IMG/VR virus record: IMGVR_UViG_3300023210_000108
Location: 1 to 35,730 of that record
Strand: one strand, 5' to 3'
Length of the DNA stretch: 35,730 bases
Origin: a virus
Positions 8,722 through 16,878 of this stretch are shown piece by piece; within the stretch, counting starts at the first letter, position 1; the number at the start of each line of letters is the position of its first letter. The translations under genes were made by a program, and so were the position numbers. The notes beneath the pieces were generated by a model. That model was not told where the DNA came from. It saw only the letters and a list, made by a program, of their open reading frames with translations, and searched no databases.

Positions 8722-9168
8722 ATGAAACGAAGAAGATTAAAGTTTAGTGATTATTATAACGAAATAATACTAAATGAAGTAGCAGAAATATACGATGTAG
8801 AAAAGAGTAGGATATTTTTGGGAAGCAGAGAGAGAAACATTATATTTGCTAAAAGACTATACATCTTTATATTAAGAGAGATGTTTAACTTGACACTCAC
8901 ACAAATAGCAAAGATAACTAACTTACATCACGCATCAATACTACACCATTCAAGACAATTTGAGTTCTTTTATAGCAACAAAGGTTATGCTCAAGACAAA
9001 AGAAACTTTGAAAGAATTGAAAATAGAATTATTGAAGTAGAGATAGATGAAGAAATCTTAGGACTAGAAACACAATTAGAAGCAATAAACAAATCATTAA
9101 CCAAATTATATAAAATAAACCAATTAAAAAATGAAAGACAAGAAAGAGAAAGTCTACTTACCAAGTAG
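8722..9168 (+). CDS. DnaA domain IV-like DNA-binding protein
   Basis: A 148-residue protein. Residues ~12-80 follow the DnaA C-terminal (domain IV) pattern: VAEIYDVEKSRIFLGSRERN, AKRLYIFILREMFNLTLTQI, AKITNLHHASILHHSRQF. The last part corresponds to the 'GRDHSTVxHA' signature that contacts DnaA boxes, here changed to LHHASILHH. No AAA+ ATPase domain is present. Residues ~110-148 form a charged helix. It probably binds specific DNA, such as the phage origin or host DnaA boxes (inference). The overlap of 38 bases with the next gene is in another frame. Confidence 0.7.
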   Translation: MKRRRLKFSDYYNEIILNEVAEIYDVEKSRIFLGSRERNIIFAKRLYIFILREMFNLTLTQIAKITNLHHASILHHSRQFEFFYSNKGYAQDKRNFERIENRIIEVEIDEEILGLETQLEAINKSLTKLYKINQLKNERQERESLLTK

Positions 9169-9918: not shown

Positions 9919-10563
9919 ATGAAAGAACAACCAAACTACTATGCTATAATATCTGCTGAGGTTAGGTATGATGAGAACCTAACTGCTAATGCTAAATTAT
10001 TATATGCTGAAATCACTGCACTACTCAATATGAATGGTGAGTGTTTTGCAACTAACAAATACTTTTCTAACCTTTATAAAAAGAGTATTGTAACAATTTC
10101 TAAATGGATTAGCGAATTAGTGTCAAATGGTTATGTATCAACCTATTACACATACAAGGGGGGTACTAAAGAAATTGATAGGAGGTATATAAGAATACTT
10201 AAAGGGGGTATTAAAGAAAACGAGAAGGGGGGTATTAAAGAAAACTTTAAGGATAATAATACAAGTATTAATACTAATACTACGTATAGTAATAATAAGG
10301 GGCGTTTTAAAAAACCAACCATTGAAGAGATTAGTAATTATTGTATTGAAAGAAAGAATAATATAGATGCAGAAACTTTTTATGATTTCTATGAAAGTAA
10401 AGATTGGAAGATAGGTAAGAACAAGATGAAGGCTTGGAAGGCTTGTGTAAGGACTTGGGAGAAAAGAAACACTAATAAACCTCAAGGTATAAGTAAAATA
10501 CACCTTCACCTACAAAAGAATATGAATGTAAAAGAAAAACTAAAACAACAATTTAAACAATGA
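9919..10563 (+). CDS. Replication initiator with winged-helix domain
   Basis: A 214-residue protein. Residues ~7-95 follow the HTH_36/replication-initiator winged-helix pattern (YYAIISAEVRYDENLTANAK, then TNKYFSNLYKKSIVTISKWI, then wing GYVSTYYTYKGG). A repetitive linker follows, and residues ~130-185 hold a second small domain (IEEISNYCIERKNNIDAETF, then KAWKACVRTWEKR) typical of phage initiators. Three G-run iterons lie within the gene at 10158-10243, as in lambda gene O. The ATGA overlap with the next gene suggests an initiator-partner pair. It may bind its own gene to open the origin (inference). Confidence 0.75.
   Translation: MKEQPNYYAIISAEVRYDENLTANAKLLYAEITALLNMNGECFATNKYFSNLYKKSIVTISKWISELVSNGYVSTYYTYKGGTKEIDRRYIRILKGGIKENEKGGIKENFKDNNTSINTNTTYSNNKGRFKKPTIEEISNYCIERKNNIDAETFYDFYESKDWKIGKNKMKAWKACVRTWEKRNTNKPQGISKIHLHLQKNMNVKEKLKQQFKQ
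10158..10243 (+). repeat. Iteron array, candidate replication origin inside the initiator gene
   Basis: Three strong copies of a G-run unit are at 10158-10174 (GGGGGGTACTAAAGAAA), 10203-10219 (AGGGGGTATTAAAGAAA) and 10227-10243 (GGGGGGTATTAAAGAAA). A degenerate fourth (12 of 17 bases) is at 10180-10196. The GTA positions fall 22, 23 and 24 bases apart, close to two helical turns. The degenerate copy is out of the reading phase of the others, which favours selection on DNA over protein. An AT-rich stretch with the palindrome AGTATTAATACT (10264-10275) follows and could be the unwinding element. Confidence 0.6.
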
Positions 10564-12168: not shown

Positions 12169-12438
12169 ATGCCAAAGATTAGAAAGATAAGAGTAGAAGA
12201 TAGAAAAGATAGTAGAGGTGGAGGTTACTCCAGAAGAAAGTTTACTGTTGCTGAAGCAGATGCTATAAGAGAAGAGTACAATACCTCAACACAAAAGATT
12301 ACTATATCATCTCTCGCTAGAAAGTATAGTGTATCACAACCATTAATGTACCAACTAATAAAAGGAACTACCTATACAGAGGAGAGTAGGGGTAGTAGAG
12401 GGGGTACTAGGGGGTATAGGGGGTATAGTAGGGGGTAA
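12169..12438 (+). CDS. Small HTH protein with Arg/Gly-rich tail
   Basis: An 89-residue protein. Residues ~25-68 form a homeodomain/resolvase-type HTH (FTVAEADAIREEYN, ISSLARKYSVSQPLMYQLIK). The basic N-terminus RKIRVEDRKDSRGGGYSRRK and the C-terminal RGSRGGTRGYRGYSRG flank it. Arg-Gly tails bind nucleic acids without strict sequence choice. The tail is encoded by a remarkable G-tract array at 12389-12435, so the DNA itself may be the functional target. A DNA-binding regulator or packaging/terminase helper is possible. Confidence 0.65.
   Translation: MPKIRKIRVEDRKDSRGGGYSRRKFTVAEADAIREEYNTSTQKITISSLARKYSVSQPLMYQLIKGTTYTEESRGSRGGTRGYRGYSRG
12389..12435 (+). repeat. G-tract array with G-quadruplex potential
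   Basis: Five runs of four or five G lie at 12389-12392, 12400-12404, 12410-12414, 12419-12423 and 12431-12435. They are separated by loops of 7, 5, 4 and 7 bases made of T, A and single G. This satisfies the common G-quadruplex pattern with G4 or longer stems. In this AT-rich genome, elsewhere G5 runs appear only singly, apart from the iterons. The repeated unit GGGGGTA(C/T)TA resembles the iteron core in the initiator gene. Confidence 0.6.
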
Positions 12439-12439
12439 G

Positions 12440-12793
12440 ATGGCTCTAAAGAAAGAAGCAAACGTACAATATAAGTTCTGTATATATATGCAGTTTAAAT
12501 ATCCTCAGTTAAGATACTGTGCTAGTCTAGGTGGTATAAGAACATCAATGAAACAAGCAGTCCTAGCAAAGAAAACTGGCTATGTCAAAGGCTTTCCTGA
12601 TATGCAGATATGCAAAGTCAATAGTAAGTATGCAGGACTATTCCTAGAAATCAAAGCAGACAAGACTTGTTACCCCTCTAAAGAACAAAAGCAATGGGTT
12701 GCTGATCTTAATGAAGAAGGCTACTATGCTAAGGTAGTCAAAGGTCTTGAAGAGTGCATGGATGTACTCGATTGGTATATGAAAATACCTTAA
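12440..12793 (+). CDS. VRR-NUC domain nuclease
   Basis: A 117-residue stand-alone VRR-NUC protein, a PD-(D/E)XK-type nuclease related to Holliday-junction resolvases. Active-site residues are visible: D54 in GFPDMQI, E70-x-K72 in LFLEIKADK and Q84 in SKEQKQW. GGIRTSMKQAVLAKKTGYVK matches the usual lead-in helix. The length is normal for phage members. It is the last gene of the early block and may cut branched recombination or replication intermediates before packaging. Confidence 0.9.
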   Translation: MALKKEANVQYKFCIYMQFKYPQLRYCASLGGIRTSMKQAVLAKKTGYVKGFPDMQICKVNSKYAGLFLEIKADKTCYPSKEQKQWVADLNEEGYYAKVVKGLEECMDVLDWYMKIP

Positions 12794-12842
12794 ACACTTT
12801 CACAATTTTTTAAAAAAACTTTTTACAAAAAATATTTCCAAC

Positions 12843-12947
12843 GAAACTGCTGGTGAAACTGCTGTGAAACTGCTAGGGTTGTTGTATGTGCTTGTGTGAT
12901 TGGTTGTCTGATCGTTACCTACAGGTTACTTAGTTACTTTTTGTTAC
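12843..12947 (+). promoter_or_regulatory. Repeat-rich control region upstream of the cargo unit
   Basis: Three direct copies of GAAACTGCT start at 12843, 12855 and 12866 (12- and 11-base steps, near one helical turn). A G/T-rich stretch follows, then four copies of GTTAC at 12914, 12925, 12933 and 12943. The region lies in the 238-base gap between the VRR-NUC gene and the next gene, upstream of a promoter. The phased spacing suggests an operator or activator array; the protein is unknown. Confidence 0.5.
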
Positions 12948-12997
12948 TACTTTTTTAACATTTTATTAATATTTGTTAATAGTTTGTAATATTTATA

Positions 12998-13005
12998 TAT
13001 ATTTG
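12998..13005 (+). promoter_or_regulatory. Bacteroidota-type promoter of the cargo unit
   Basis: TATATTTG fits TAnnTTTG, with TTTG at 12972-12975 upstream (22-base gap). Transcription would start near 13010 and run through 13032-14981 to the terminator at 15006. The phased repeats at 12843-12947 lie just upstream, in position to act on it. Confidence 0.6.
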
Positions 13006-13031
13006 CAGTATAACAATTAAAAAAAAACACT

Positions 13032-13346
13032 ATGAATGCACAAAAAAACACACAAAACACTGATAATCAATCAGTTACAGAATCTATCTCAAGTAGTCAA
13101 AACAATAAAACTACTGAAAATCAAGAAGTTACCTATATTTTAGAGAATAATTATATAGGTACTTTATTTACTTATAACAATTTACAAGAAGCATTTAGTA
13201 TGTTAGGAGATAGTTATCTTGTTGAATGGTTTAATAGTAGAAAGGAAATCCCCGCAAAATCAAATTTTATAATACAAAAAATAGTAAATGGAAATAATAG
13301 TACTATAATAACAAAAGTAAAAGCAAAAAACTTATTTAACTTATAA
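13032..13346 (+). CDS. Hypothetical cargo protein
   Basis: A 104-residue protein. Residues 1-35 are Gln/Asn/Ser/Thr-rich and probably disordered. Residues ~36-104 form a compact beta/alpha part (YILENNYIGTLFTYNNLQEA, YLVEWFNSRKEIPAK, IIQKIVNGNNSTIITKVKAK). No recognised domain. It is first in the cargo transcript, after a poly-A leader. Confidence 0.6.
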   Translation: MNAQKNTQNTDNQSVTESISSSQNNKTTENQEVTYILENNYIGTLFTYNNLQEAFSMLGDSYLVEWFNSRKEIPAKSNFIIQKIVNGNNSTIITKVKAKNLFNL

Positions 13347-13358
13347 AATAAAAAAATC

Positions 13359-13505
13359 ATGCAAAAATTAAACACCGATCTATTAAAAAAGTACAAAACT
13401 AAAACCAAAAACAAATTAAAAATAATATTTGAGGAATTAATATTTATGCTAGTAATGTTCCTATTTTCTTACATATGTATTATTATATTTTTAATTTACT
13501 ATTAA
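13359..13505 (+). CDS. Small membrane protein of the cargo unit
   Basis: A 48-residue protein from ATG at 13359: a basic N-terminal half (LLKKYKTKTKNKLK), then a strongly hydrophobic helix at residues ~29-47 (FMLVMFLFSYICIIIFLIYY). It would be a single-span inner-membrane protein with its N-terminus in the cytoplasm. It sits 12 bases after one gene and 18 before the next, with A-rich leaders on both. Function unknown; small membrane proteins in phage cargo can exclude other phages. Confidence 0.55.
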   Translation: MQKLNTDLLKKYKTKTKNKLKIIFEELIFMLVMFLFSYICIIIFLIYY

Positions 13506-13523
13506 TCACTAAAAAATAAAAAA

Positions 13524-13802
13524 ATGACTACAAAAGAAAAACAATTAGAAAACACTTTAACATGGTACACTTATTATGTTGATTATATCGAAAAACATTT
13601 TTACAATATACATAATGAAGCAGCCGAATTTTCAGACGATAGGCAAAAATTAGAAAATGAATTCTTAAAATTTCCTGAATTAGAAGAAGAAGAAGAAGAA
13701 GAAGAAGAAAATACTTGTTATGAATGTGGCGAAGAAATAGAACAGGAAGATCGTTTCTGTTCTAAAGAATGTTATAACAACTCTTTTAATGAACGTATAT
13801 AA
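13524..13802 (+). CDS. Zinc-ribbon protein with poly-glutamate linker
   Basis: A 92-residue protein. Residues 1-53 are helical and charged. Residues 54-62 are nine consecutive Glu codons, all GAA (13683-13709). Residues 65-83 carry C65-x2-C68-x10-C79-x3-C83 (CYECGEEIEQEDRFCSKEC), a small zinc-binding treble-clef-like knuckle. The identical codons form a microsatellite that could expand or shrink in steps of one residue. The protein may bind nucleic acid or protein through the zinc knuckle. It is encoded just before the GP88-like gene. Confidence 0.65.
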   Translation: MTTKEKQLENTLTWYTYYVDYIEKHFYNIHNEAAEFSDDRQKLENEFLKFPELEEEEEEEEENTCYECGEEIEQEDRFCSKECYNNSFNERI

Positions 13803-13825
13803 TATTAATTAAAAACTATAAAAAA

Positions 13826-14569
13826 ATGAACGTAAAAACACAAAATTATAAAGAAGTAAAAAATTTACTAAGTAAAGGTATTACAAACAGTAAAACGGCA
13901 AAAAATAATTTAGAAACATATATTTTGTACTTAGCACCACATAAACAAAACAGTAAAAAAATAAATCTTTGCCCTAAAGCCTCGAAAGGTTGCGCGGTTG
14001 CTTGTTTATATTCAGCGGGTAGAGGTAGGTTCTCAAATGTAAAAAACAGTCGAATAAATAAAGCCGAATATTATATTAGCGACAAAATTAAATTTATTAA
14101 TCAGTTAAGTAATGAATTAATAAAAATTGCTAACAGATCATTAAAACAAAACAAAAAAATAGCAATTCGTTTAAATGGCACTAGTGATTTAGACTTTATC
14201 GCATTAATAAAAAAATATAATAATTTAGATTTACTAAATGGTCAGCAGTTTAAAAACTTAGTTTTTTATGACTATACGGCTATTTTAGGCAAAATAAAAA
14301 AGTATATTAATACTAATTATAAATTGACTTTAAGTAGAAAAGAAGACAACGAAAGCGAAGTATTACAGGCTTTAAAAATTGGCGGTAATGTTGCAGCCGT
14401 TTTTCGTAATGATTTGCCAAAAAAATACAAAGGTTACAAGGTTGTAAATGGTGACACAAGCGATTTAGAAATGATATACAATTCAAATGTTATTTTAGGG
14501 CTAAGGGCTAAAGGTGAGGCAAAAAATGATAAAACAGGATTTGTTTTAAATTCTTATAATTTAAATTAA
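13826..14569 (+). CDS. GP88-like protein of unknown function
   Basis: A 247-residue protein resembling the phage 'gene product 88' family. It has CPKASKGCAVACLYSAGRGR at 49-68 (C49, C56 and C60 invariant-looking), SRINKAEYY, and RLNGTSDLDF at 115-124. C-terminal strands VAAVFRNDLPKKYKGYKVVN and VILGLRAKGEAKND complete the fold. The family is common on phages and plasmids, but no biochemical role is established to my knowledge. The conserved Cys triad suggests metal binding. It is the largest gene of the cargo unit. Confidence 0.7.
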   Translation: MNVKTQNYKEVKNLLSKGITNSKTAKNNLETYILYLAPHKQNSKKINLCPKASKGCAVACLYSAGRGRFSNVKNSRINKAEYYISDKIKFINQLSNELIKIANRSLKQNKKIAIRLNGTSDLDFIALIKKYNNLDLLNGQQFKNLVFYDYTAILGKIKKYINTNYKLTLSRKEDNESEVLQALKIGGNVAAVFRNDLPKKYKGYKVVNGDTSDLEMIYNSNVILGLRAKGEAKNDKTGFVLNSYNLN

Positions 14570-14573
14570 TATT

Positions 14574-14660
14574 ATGAATAGAGAACTTCCAAAAAGTAAT
14601 TTTTCAGATACTTTTCTTTTCATCATTTTTGTACTGGCAGTATTAACAAATGGATGTTAA
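14574..14660 (+). CDS. Possible 28-residue membrane peptide
   Basis: A very short frame with ATG five bases after the GP88-like gene. Residues ~11-25 are hydrophobic (DTFLFIIFVLAVLTNG) and the last residue is Cys. It could be a membrane peptide. The short length means a chance frame is possible; spacing and the hydrophobic pattern are the only support. Confidence 0.35.
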   Translation: MNRELPKSNFSDTFLFIIFVLAVLTNGC

Positions 14661-14699
14661 ACAATAACACAAAATTAATAATTAAACAATTAAACAAAC

Positions 14700-14981
14700 A
14701 TGGAAACAATAAACAAAGAACAGGCAAAAGAATTAATTAATCAGACTAACGGGCGTATATTTTCAGCAACTTATATTAAAAAAGATATGAGCAAAAGAAT
14801 TATGAACGCTAGACTAGGCAAACATTATAAAAGTAAAACAGGTAAGTCAGCGCCTTATGATCCTGATAAGTATAACCTTAAAAAAGTTTATGACATGAAA
14901 GTAAAAGACTTTAGAATTATAAACTTAAACACTTTAATAAGTTTATCTATTAATAAAAATAAGTATGTTATAAAAGAATAA
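14700..14981 (+). CDS. WYL_2 / DUF2693-like small phage protein
   Basis: A 93-residue protein with the pattern of a small phage SH3-like barrel: INQTNGRIFSATYIKKDMSK, RIMNARLGKHYK, YDPDKYNLKKVYDMKVKDFR and IINLNTLISLSINKNKY. This resembles the WYL_2 family (formerly DUF2693), of unknown function and possibly ligand- or nucleic-acid-binding. It is the last cargo gene and is followed by a terminator. Family call from memory. Confidence 0.6.
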   Translation: METINKEQAKELINQTNGRIFSATYIKKDMSKRIMNARLGKHYKSKTGKSAPYDPDKYNLKKVYDMKVKDFRIINLNTLISLSINKNKYVIKE

Positions 14982-15005
14982 ATTAAACTAACATATAACA
15001 CAATT

Positions 15006-15031
15006 AAAGACTATTAGCGTAGTCTTTTTTT
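15006..15031 (+). terminator. Rho-independent terminator of the cargo unit
   Basis: AAAGACTA (15006-15013) pairs perfectly with TAGTCTTT (15020-15027) across the loop TTAGCG and runs into a T-tract to 15031. It lies 25 bases after the last cargo gene and separates that unit from the packaging genes. Confidence 0.8.
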
Positions 15032-15585
15032 GTATCTAATATATACATATTATACAGCACATTTAAACGCTTAAACACTTTAAATAGTACTATTACTTTT
15101 TATTAGTTTCTTTTTAAATAGTGTTTTGTTATTGTTGATATGATAAATTTTTTTCTTTACTCTTACAAGATCAAGCCAAAAAAAAAGAATATTTAAAGAA
15201 TATTTGCAACAATTTTACAAACTTTAAACAGTTTTTAATTAATGTTAATATAAAAAAAAGGTTGTTTTTGAATTCCGTAAACGTAAACCGATAGGGGCTT
15301 ATTGCCACCTAAACGCACACACACAAAACCAAAGTTCAATTTTATAAAAGGTATGTTATGATTAAACATCTATGTAAAGGGTTGGTATATACTTTGCGAT
15401 ATGAGCAATGATGTTTACTATAGGATGTGGCGATTATAAGTAGTTACTATAAGTGATATACTCTTATAAGAGGCACGAAGTTAGTGTTTTAAAAATAAAG
15501 TTTTGCATAATTATTATACAATTTAGGAAAATGTTAACAAACTGATGTTCAATTTTATATAATAATTGTTAATGTGTATTAAAAC
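15032..15585 (+). other. Structured non-coding region before the packaging genes
   Basis: No reading frame of useful length is present. Elements seen: palindrome AATAGTACTATT (15083-15094); a tandem 11-base repeat AAAGAATATTT (15184-15205); a 7-bp hairpin with one bulge (15292-15298 with 15304-15311); an 8-bp inverted pair TAAACATC/GATGTTTA (15363-15370, 15410-15417); related stretches TTACTATAGG (from 15415) and TTACTATAAG (from 15444); and palindrome CTCTTATAAGAG (15461-15472). A position directly before the terminase genes suits a packaging (pac/cos) site or an untranslated RNA. Neither is proven. Confidence 0.5.
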
Positions 15586-15593
15586 TATTTTTG
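15586..15593 (+). promoter_or_regulatory. Bacteroidota-type promoter of the packaging genes
   Basis: TATTTTTG matches TAnnTTTG, with TTG at 15566-15568 seventeen bases upstream. Transcription would start near 15598, leaving a leader of under ten bases before the ATG at 15606. Confidence 0.65.
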
Positions 15594-15605
15594 TATTTTG
15601 GCAAA

Positions 15606-16025
15606 ATGAGTGAAGAAAAGAAGTTAGGTGGTGAGGCAATGAAAAAGAGGGGACACTCTATTGGCAAGATAGATGAGAACTATAATAAGACTGATAAGGT
15701 TTTGTTACCTAAAAGTAATGAGGTTAGAAGAGTTGCTAAGATGACTAGGAAATCTCTTGCTTATGCACTAGAGGGACAACCAGTAAAGATTAAGATGGCA
15801 TTAGATATATTATTTGAAGAAGACCCTAGAGCCTACATAGATGCAATAGCAAAACTAATGAACTATGCTATGCCTAAACTATCATCAACAGAAATAAAGA
15901 AAGATACAGATACTAAGATTGAGATTAACTTAAATGAAGGTGCTACCCTTGATGATATTAAAAATCAAATCAGAGGACTTGAAGATGCAGATGATATAGA
16001 CTACGCAGAGGTAGATGAAGAATAA
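15606..16025 (+). CDS. Putative small terminase subunit
   Basis: A 139-residue protein from ATG at 15606; a TTG at 15591 lies inside the promoter and is unlikely as a start. The basic N-terminus is followed by helical segments (RRVAKMTRKSLAYALEGQPV, KIKMALDILFEEDPRAYIDA, IAKLMNYAMPKL) and an acidic end. Size, helical character and place at the head of the packaging genes suit a small terminase that recognises the packaging site. The sequence match is weak, so the call rests on context. It ends just before the methyltransferase. Confidence 0.6.
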   Translation: MSEEKKLGGEAMKKRGHSIGKIDENYNKTDKVLLPKSNEVRRVAKMTRKSLAYALEGQPVKIKMALDILFEEDPRAYIDAIAKLMNYAMPKLSSTEIKKDTDTKIEINLNEGATLDDIKNQIRGLEDADDIDYAEVDEE

Positions 16026-16044
16026 AAACACAAACAATGAAATT

Positions 16045-16878
16045 ATGAATGTATTAAGTTTGTTTGATGGAATGTCTTGTGGTCAAATCGCATTAGAAAG
16101 AGCAGGAATTAAAGTAAATAAATACTTTGCTGCAGAAATTAAAAAACACGCAATAGAAGTAACACAACATAATTATCCAAATACAATACAATTAGGAGAT
16201 GTTACAAAGGTGAAAGCAAATGATTTACCTAAAATAGATTTGTTAATTGGTGGAAGTCCTTGCCAAGATTTTAGCAGGGCAAATAAAGAGCGTAAAGGAG
16301 TGGAAGGTTCTAAGTCTAGTTTATTCTTTGAGTATGTTAGACTACTTAAAGAGTGTAAGCCAAAATACTTTCTTTTAGAGAATGTAATTATGTCTGATTA
16401 TAATTATTGGTTTATTTGTAATGAGTTGGATTGTGAACCTGTTAGAATATGTGGTAGTTTAGTTAGTGGTGCTTTAAGAGATAGACTTTATTGGACAAAC
16501 ATTCCTCCATTCAGTTATGATATAACAGGTAGATTGATTAGTAATATTCCACAACCTAAAGATAAAAAAATATATCTTCAAAATATATTAGATAGTGGGA
16601 CAACAAAGAAAAGAAAACACTCTTGCTTAAATACAAATAGCGGTGCTACAGGTAAATCAAAACAAGAATATCTTTTACATAGAAACAAAACTACAGGAAT
16701 GATAACATTGATATATGAAAAAAATTGTGTTAGAACTGTTAATCAAAATGAATTAGAAAAACTACATAATATTCCAAAAGGATATACAAGTATTTTAAAT
16801 CAAAGAAAGGCAGGAGATTTAATTGGTGATGGGTGGACAGTAGATGTAGTGAAGCATATTTTTAAAAACTTAAAATGA
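16045..16878 (+). CDS. DNA cytosine-5 methyltransferase
   Basis: A 277-residue C5-methyltransferase that adds a methyl group to cytosine in DNA using S-adenosylmethionine. Motif I is LSLFDGMSCGQIAL (4-17), motif IV has the catalytic Cys in GGSPCQDFS (C73), motif VI is ENV (112-114), motif VIII is LRDRLYWTN (144-152) and motif X is GDGWTVDVVKHIF at the end. The ATG at 16045 begins exactly as homologues do; an upstream ATG at 16015 would overlap the previous gene. No matching restriction enzyme is encoded, so it is an orphan that may protect the phage from host restriction or mark DNA for packaging. Confidence 0.92.
   Translation: MNVLSLFDGMSCGQIALERAGIKVNKYFAAEIKKHAIEVTQHNYPNTIQLGDVTKVKANDLPKIDLLIGGSPCQDFSRANKERKGVEGSKSSLFFEYVRLLKECKPKYFLLENVIMSDYNYWFICNELDCEPVRICGSLVSGALRDRLYWTNIPPFSYDITGRLISNIPQPKDKKIYLQNILDSGTTKKRKHSCLNTNSGATGKSKQEYLLHRNKTTGMITLIYEKNCVRTVNQNELEKLHNIPKGYTSILNQRKAGDLIGDGWTVDVVKHIFKNLK

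Follow-up and report, generated by a model that had tools for sequence, protein, structure and literature searches.

The 35,730-base virus record IMGVR_UViG_3300023210_000108 from IMG/VR (hereafter the window) carries, between its early and its packaging genes, a unit of about 2.2 kb that we consider to be, more likely than not, an accessory operon with interchangeable content, located at one constant place in the genomes of a lineage of marine tailed phages of Bacteroidetes type and acting early on the host. The fixed slot and the exchange of its content are very well supported by sequence comparison. Early expression and a function in host takeover are steps that we infer, and the chances of early host takeover itself are about even. 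A previous sequence-only reading had described six small genes with a leader and a terminator, and the ORFs and the sequence bear this out: all six ORFs are present, spanning 13,032-14,981.

A fixed slot with exchanged content

Almost all genes of the window lie on the + strand, in the order tail, exonuclease, replication-initiation protein, VRR-NUC, the block, small-terminase-like protein, DNA methyltransferase, large terminase and structural genes. Judged by the large terminase, the nearest isolates are phages of marine Bacteroidetes, for example Croceibacter phage P2559Y (44%). The conserved left neighbour of the slot is the VRR-NUC nuclease gene (12,440-12,793, + strand; Pfam PF08774, E=3.2e-5), present in every slot-spanning locus. 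Its conserved right neighbour is the small-terminase-like gene (15,606-16,025, + strand), whose start was picked by aligning starts in relatives. This gene had no family match of its own in Pfam or PHROG profile searches and is named from its position, since in almost every terL relative it lies ahead of the large terminase.

Relatives were gathered by three routes, namely through GP88, the large terminase and the repeat array of the leader, and 29 loci contained both VRR-NUC and the small terminase, 24 of them distinct (the window included). All 24 carry a block of genes, 2.6-5.2 kb long, between these two neighbours, and none has an empty site. Thus, the presence or absence among sister phages to which the sequence-only reading had looked is not what distinguishes them; rather, this is an ancestral slot with exchanged content. 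That reading had also weighed a block conserved in all relatives with late-gene functions. The position is indeed conserved, but late-gene functions did not emerge.

Two lineages only, L002 and L004, are sisters with near-identical flanks. Identity to them is mostly 96-100% in the flanks and 53-96% in the block, with edges at the array (~12,880) and near 15,250. Within the block, synonymous divergence (pS) from L002 and L004 amounts to 0.347 and 0.348, versus 0.054 and 0.047 in the flanks, a rise of about sevenfold, and this jump is most likely explained by replacement with a diverged allele through recombination. At the right border of the exchanged segment lies a conserved noncoding element (15,250-15,605, + strand), where identity to the sisters is back at 97-99%. 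Its part at 15,325-15,605 is very highly conserved, with the stretch TTTGCGATATGAGCAATGATGTTTACTATA nearly invariant and GTTCAATTTTATA present twice. The element is probably the promoter of the small terminase, and possibly a packaging or late-promoter site; an Rfam search of 12,700-15,700 gave no match.

Comparison of the loci also reveals a semi-conserved gene order: membrane peptide, zinc-ribbon or acidic protein, GP88 or a Kyano_Gp96-like protein, 28-aa membrane peptide and WYL_2. GP88 was found in 14/24 loci and the Kyano_Gp96-like family F6 (PF23790, 1.2e-17) in 6/24. Each comes after a zinc-ribbon or F3 gene, and the two never occur together (hypergeometric p ~0.002 if the loci are independent). 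Many other slot genes are one-off occurrences among the 24 loci. At L095:4606-5850 and L100:2669-3910, GP88 is replaced in the slot by a protein of 413-414 aa whose C-terminal region is rich in cysteine and which has no confident family match.

Variation is also seen elsewhere in these genomes. A C5-type DNA methyltransferase gene (16,015-16,878) lies between the small and large terminase and is absent from the otherwise near-identical sister L002; L024, L051, L054 and L056 too have extra DNA between these genes, and the site is a second accessory insertion point. At 8,722-9,050, identity to sister L003 falls to 72-74% within flanks of 94-100%, and this is a second exchanged gene.

The word use of the block had been described as different from that of its neighbours, and the codon-usage comparison agrees, with both AAA runs and CGN codons raised. 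GC content is 25.7% in the block versus 32.5% in the neighbours, AAA makes up 0.91 of lysine codons versus 0.67-0.71, and AAAAA occurs 25.6 times per kb versus 6.4-6.8. The CGN share of arginine codons is 6/17 versus 27/356 (Fisher p=0.002), and in overall codon-usage distance the block is, narrowly, at the top of 35 gene sets (5.12 vs 5.05). The slot has lower GC in 23/24 loci and A-runs in 22/24, so the odd composition does not show that the window phage acquired the block recently. Because it is common to the slot across the lineage, it suggests a separate pool of genes that supplies the slot, and it does not speak for one recent origin from a foreign source.

Leader, predicted promoter and terminator

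The repeat-rich control region of the sequence-only reading was recovered as three GAAACTGC and four GTTAC repeats in the leader. An A/T-rich tract (12,794-12,841, + strand), A/T-rich in most relatives too, lies ahead of an array of three (T)GAAACTGCT repeats (12,842-12,875, + strand), which forms the left border of the exchanged segment. The three GAAACTGC copies begin at 12,843, 12,855 and 12,866. All 24 leaders contain 2-6 copies, always on the + strand and mostly spaced by 9, 11 or 12 bases, and the motif occurs 95 times in 16.8 kb of leader versus 22 (+) and 6 (-) times in 322 kb elsewhere. When the collection was scanned, the array recurred mainly beside VRR-NUC/HTH homologues, and some matches were unrelated chance occurrences in coding sequence. 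In the distant relatives L276, L225, L292 and L285, GAAACTGC arrays of mostly 9-base period lie inside a small coding gene just 5' of an ORF that we read as DUF5675-like. A Chi-like, genome-wide oriented motif was considered and rejected, given 22 (+) versus 6 (-) copies outside leaders where about 8 are expected, part of them in in-gene arrays. The array may represent origin iterons, an operator array or a recombination border.

Further downstream, the four GTTAC repeats (12,914-12,947, + strand) form a candidate operator. Several relatives have a TTTAGAATNATT(C/A)TAAA palindrome in their place. Close to the array and promoter, the leaders of L034, L038, L095, L097 and L098 contain TTTAGAATCATTCTAAA, a perfect palindrome whose shape recalls the 7-1-7 boxes of the Fur family; in the window and in L044, GTTAC repeats stand in its place. 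A Fur-box reading of the TTTAGAATNATTCTAAA palindrome was dropped, the palindrome being absent from the window.

The block had been credited with a promoter of its own, and a Bacteroidetes sigma-A promoter, TTTG-N22-TATATTTG, is predicted at 12,972-13,005 (+ strand), from a match to the TTTG / TANNTTTG consensus of this phylum (PMC6847099, PMC9723704) and a position kept in relatives. The pattern has two + strand matches in the window versus about 1.2 expected by chance per strand, so the prediction is weak by itself and draws its support from conservation at the same place: most aligned relatives have a TANNTTTG box or a near variant directly 5' of the first cargo gene. The predicted promoter implies a leader of about 22 bases, near the reported phylum median of 24 (PMC6847099, PMC9723704).

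At the other end, the block closes with an intrinsic terminator, AAAGACTAT-TAGC-GTAGTCTTTTTTT (15,006-15,031, + strand), a paired stem followed by a T run. It had been called strong. The terminator stands, but its strength does not, as it is A/T-rich with few G-C pairs and was missed by a generic terminator scanner. We judge it to be real because a hairpin and T run follow the last cargo genes in 20/24 loci, with stems that differ yet keep their pairing. We found no terminator separating the VRR-NUC gene from the block, and read-through into the block from upstream may therefore occur.

The cargo genes and the GP88 family

The first gene (13,032-13,346, + strand) encodes a 104-aa protein with a low-complexity N-terminus, which is confined to the window, with a homologue in none of the other loci compared. 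It is followed by a 48-aa one-helix membrane protein of the TM48 family (13,359-13,505, + strand), with homologues in 17/24 loci, and by a 92-aa acidic protein (13,524-13,802, + strand) with weak zinc-ribbon matches and a C-terminal CxxC..FCSxxC zinc ribbon. Downstream of GP88 lies a 28-aa membrane peptide ending in NGC (14,574-14,660, + strand), whose family was found in 32 fetched loci and in 20/24 slot loci, with P-x-(T/S)-N-(Y/W/F)-S conserved and a terminal cysteine usual. Across this locus and the 31 others the peptides are 26-36 aa long and follow M-S-(R/K)-G-x-L-P-L-T-N-(Y/W)-S; most end in a cysteine, resembling a lipoprotein signal with nothing behind it. The last gene (14,700-14,981, + strand) encodes a 93-aa WYL_2-like Sm/SH3-barrel protein (DUF2693, PF10902, E=2.7e-5; phrog_2267, 4e-13). 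Its Pfam match covers nearly the full domain at 24.8 bits versus a curated cut-off of 26.7, and WYL_2 is present in 19/24 loci.

The remaining gene, GP88 (13,826-14,569, + strand, 247 aa), had been called GP88-like and is GP88 outright (PF17338, E=6e-34, 118 bits versus a curated cut-off of 24.4; phrog_1617, 1.7e-58). A pN/pS of 0.21 for GP88 and 0.45 for WYL_2 is a sign of selection on both genes, in keeping with their coding status. The family (PF17338, phrog_1617, phrog_1392) also takes in the 200-aa protein of most relatives, which like the window protein matches PF17338 far above the cut-off. Both this match (1.2e-40) and profile comparison identify it as a divergent GP88. This branch differs from the window GP88 in a shorter C-terminus and in having HDSGD in place of NGTSD. 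A literature search found no functional study of GP88, DUF2693 or Gp37/Gp68.

Could GP88 be an enzyme? In an alignment of 74 diverse members, C49, C56, C60, R115, D121, Y148, Y150, S170 and D213 are invariant, and a CX5-7CX3C cysteine pattern is found in 73/74. An AF2 model predicted from this alignment (pLDDT 91, pTM 0.88) gave nothing significant by Foldseek against the PDB (best E 0.17, TM about 0.2-0.3), and the GP88 profile had no PDB match by sequence. Three PDB sequence matches of the 200-aa branch at E 0.3-0.6 were judged to be chance, and the scattered barrel matches of a first fold model (15 sequences, pLDDT 79) were not confirmed by the better one. In a viral fold library, the named good-score matches to the model were GP88 and DUF7227 proteins. 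With no PDB relative by sequence or fold, it is the invariant residues alone that speak for an enzyme, and we would put a metal-binding enzyme, with a predicted metal site, at somewhat below even chances. GP88 resembles radical SAM enzymes in having three clustered cysteines ahead of a conserved motif and an alpha/beta model, and a few radical SAM names are listed among the viral fold matches below significance. However, the spacing is CX5-7CX3C rather than CX3CX2C, there is no PF04055 match at E<1, and radical SAM entries in the PDB have Foldseek E>2; this assignment was therefore rejected.

The sequence-only reading had asked for co-occurrence of GP88 with zinc-ribbon genes, which holds within the lineage and is weak beyond it. 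A zinc-ribbon or F3 family protein is present in 20/24 loci, normally immediately 5' of GP88 or F6. In L009, GP88 is fused to a similar zinc ribbon and in L136 it adjoins one, which suggests a physical partnership. Outside the lineage the association is 10/204 versus 24/1114 neighbours (p=0.03, the loci not being independent).

GP88 is present in pelagiphages, HMO-2011, giant phages and many mycobacteriophages, and viral contigs gave at least 600 matched stretches on hundreds of contigs. It is rare in bacterial genomes (25 loci), and a single distant GP88 among 72,556 plasmids led us to reject a plasmid origin of the block. In pelagiphage HTVC120P it is gene 3, ahead of the RNA polymerase; in HMO-2011 it is gene 1, and the next gene carries an annotation of similarity to L5 Gp82; in mycobacteriophage Eros it lies near the right end, with DNA methylases among nearby genes. 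We take these positions to be early regions, and the presence of GP88 in early regions of unrelated phages is our main argument for an early, host-directed role.

A probable accessory operon and its alternatives

The layout had been likened to that of a moron, and a self-contained, compositionally distinct unit between early and packaging genes is indeed what we see. As in morons of temperate phages, the block has a predicted promoter and a terminator of its own and a deviating base composition. Yet a classical moron, that is, a recently inserted, independently transcribed gene set benefiting the lysogen, seems to us very unlikely: none of the 24 loci has an empty site, the composition is common to a slot conserved across the lineage, and there is no sign of lysogeny, with neither an integrase nor a repressor in the set of window proteins scanned, which takes in some but not all small ORFs. 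Equally improbable, in our estimate, are ordinary fast-evolving early genes diverging in place under relaxed or positive selection, without cassette exchange. All relatives do carry partly the same families at the same position, but the edges of the divergent segment are sharp and unrelated genes swap at one position (GP88 versus F6; the 413-aa protein in L095 and L100). The sevenfold rise in synonymous divergence also points to segment replacement, since relaxed selection on the proteins would not produce it.

That the block protects against other phages, by defence or by superinfection exclusion, is more plausible than these two readings, though still unlikely. Hotspots of P2/P4 type are 1-5 kb loci, flanked by a conserved gene on either side, in which gene turnover is high (PMC9122126), and the slot is likewise small, fixed in place and rich in one-off families; the block also encodes two membrane peptides, and WYL-superfamily domains have been linked to defence regulation (PMC4012209). 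However, the slot differs from such hotspots in its semi-fixed operon backbone, its array-marked left border and its setting in a virus in which no integrase was found. PADLOC gave no confident defence-family match for ten proteins (five longer window proteins and five from relatives), and where no lysogeny genes are seen there is little chance to protect a lysogen. Of the earlier suggestion that this is the best host-takeover or defence candidate in the window, the block is the best accessory-gene candidate here, defence found no support from PADLOC, and host takeover is the best guess. A replication origin formed by the array and leader, with cargo beside it and exchange arising from origin recombination, is rather doubtful but would be compatible with an accessory operon. 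The direct repeats are spaced by 9-12 bp next to an A/T-rich tract, with a replication-initiation protein encoded about 2 kb upstream, at 9,919-10,563; against this, the GC skew has no turning point (all genes, however, lie on the same strand), and in some distant relatives a second array is found within a gene.

In the reading that we find most likely, the block sits in a hotspot of exchange and is an operon for early host takeover or counter-defence. Transcription of the operon would start at a host-sigma-A-type promoter of its own and stop at a terminator, likewise its own, that lies shortly ahead of the packaging genes. Relatives that infect the same cell would trade the segment by homologous recombination, and two conserved stretches would bound it: on the left the GAAACTGC array that follows the VRR-NUC gene, on the right the noncoding element ahead of the small terminase. 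Its products would act early in infection, reprogramming the host or blunting its defences. In this scheme GP88 may be a metal- or Fe-S-binding barrel-type enzyme, with the adjoining zinc-ribbon protein as partner or targeting subunit; WYL_2 may bind nucleic acid or a ligand, and the envelope may be where both membrane peptides act. It would be bolder, and we think it unlikely, to propose that the array, putatively bound by a phage factor (e.g. the HTH protein at 12,169-12,438), is both the switch of the cargo operon and its recombination border, and that GP88 and the zinc ribbon form a new Fe-S/metal enzyme of early host takeover across phages of Bacteroidetes, pelagic Alphaproteobacteria and mycobacteria.

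As a phage accessory hotspot, the block is ordinary in kind; its semi-fixed operon, array-marked border and GP88 are unusual. GP88 is widespread in viral contigs and in cultured pelagiphages and mycobacteriophages, and the slot offers a natural experiment: GP88 or a Kyano_Gp96-like protein at the same position suggests interchangeable roles, and the operon points to likely partners. Being shared by the whole lineage and having a border marked by sequence, the exchange slot is also a place to seek new host-takeover and counter-defence genes of marine phages.
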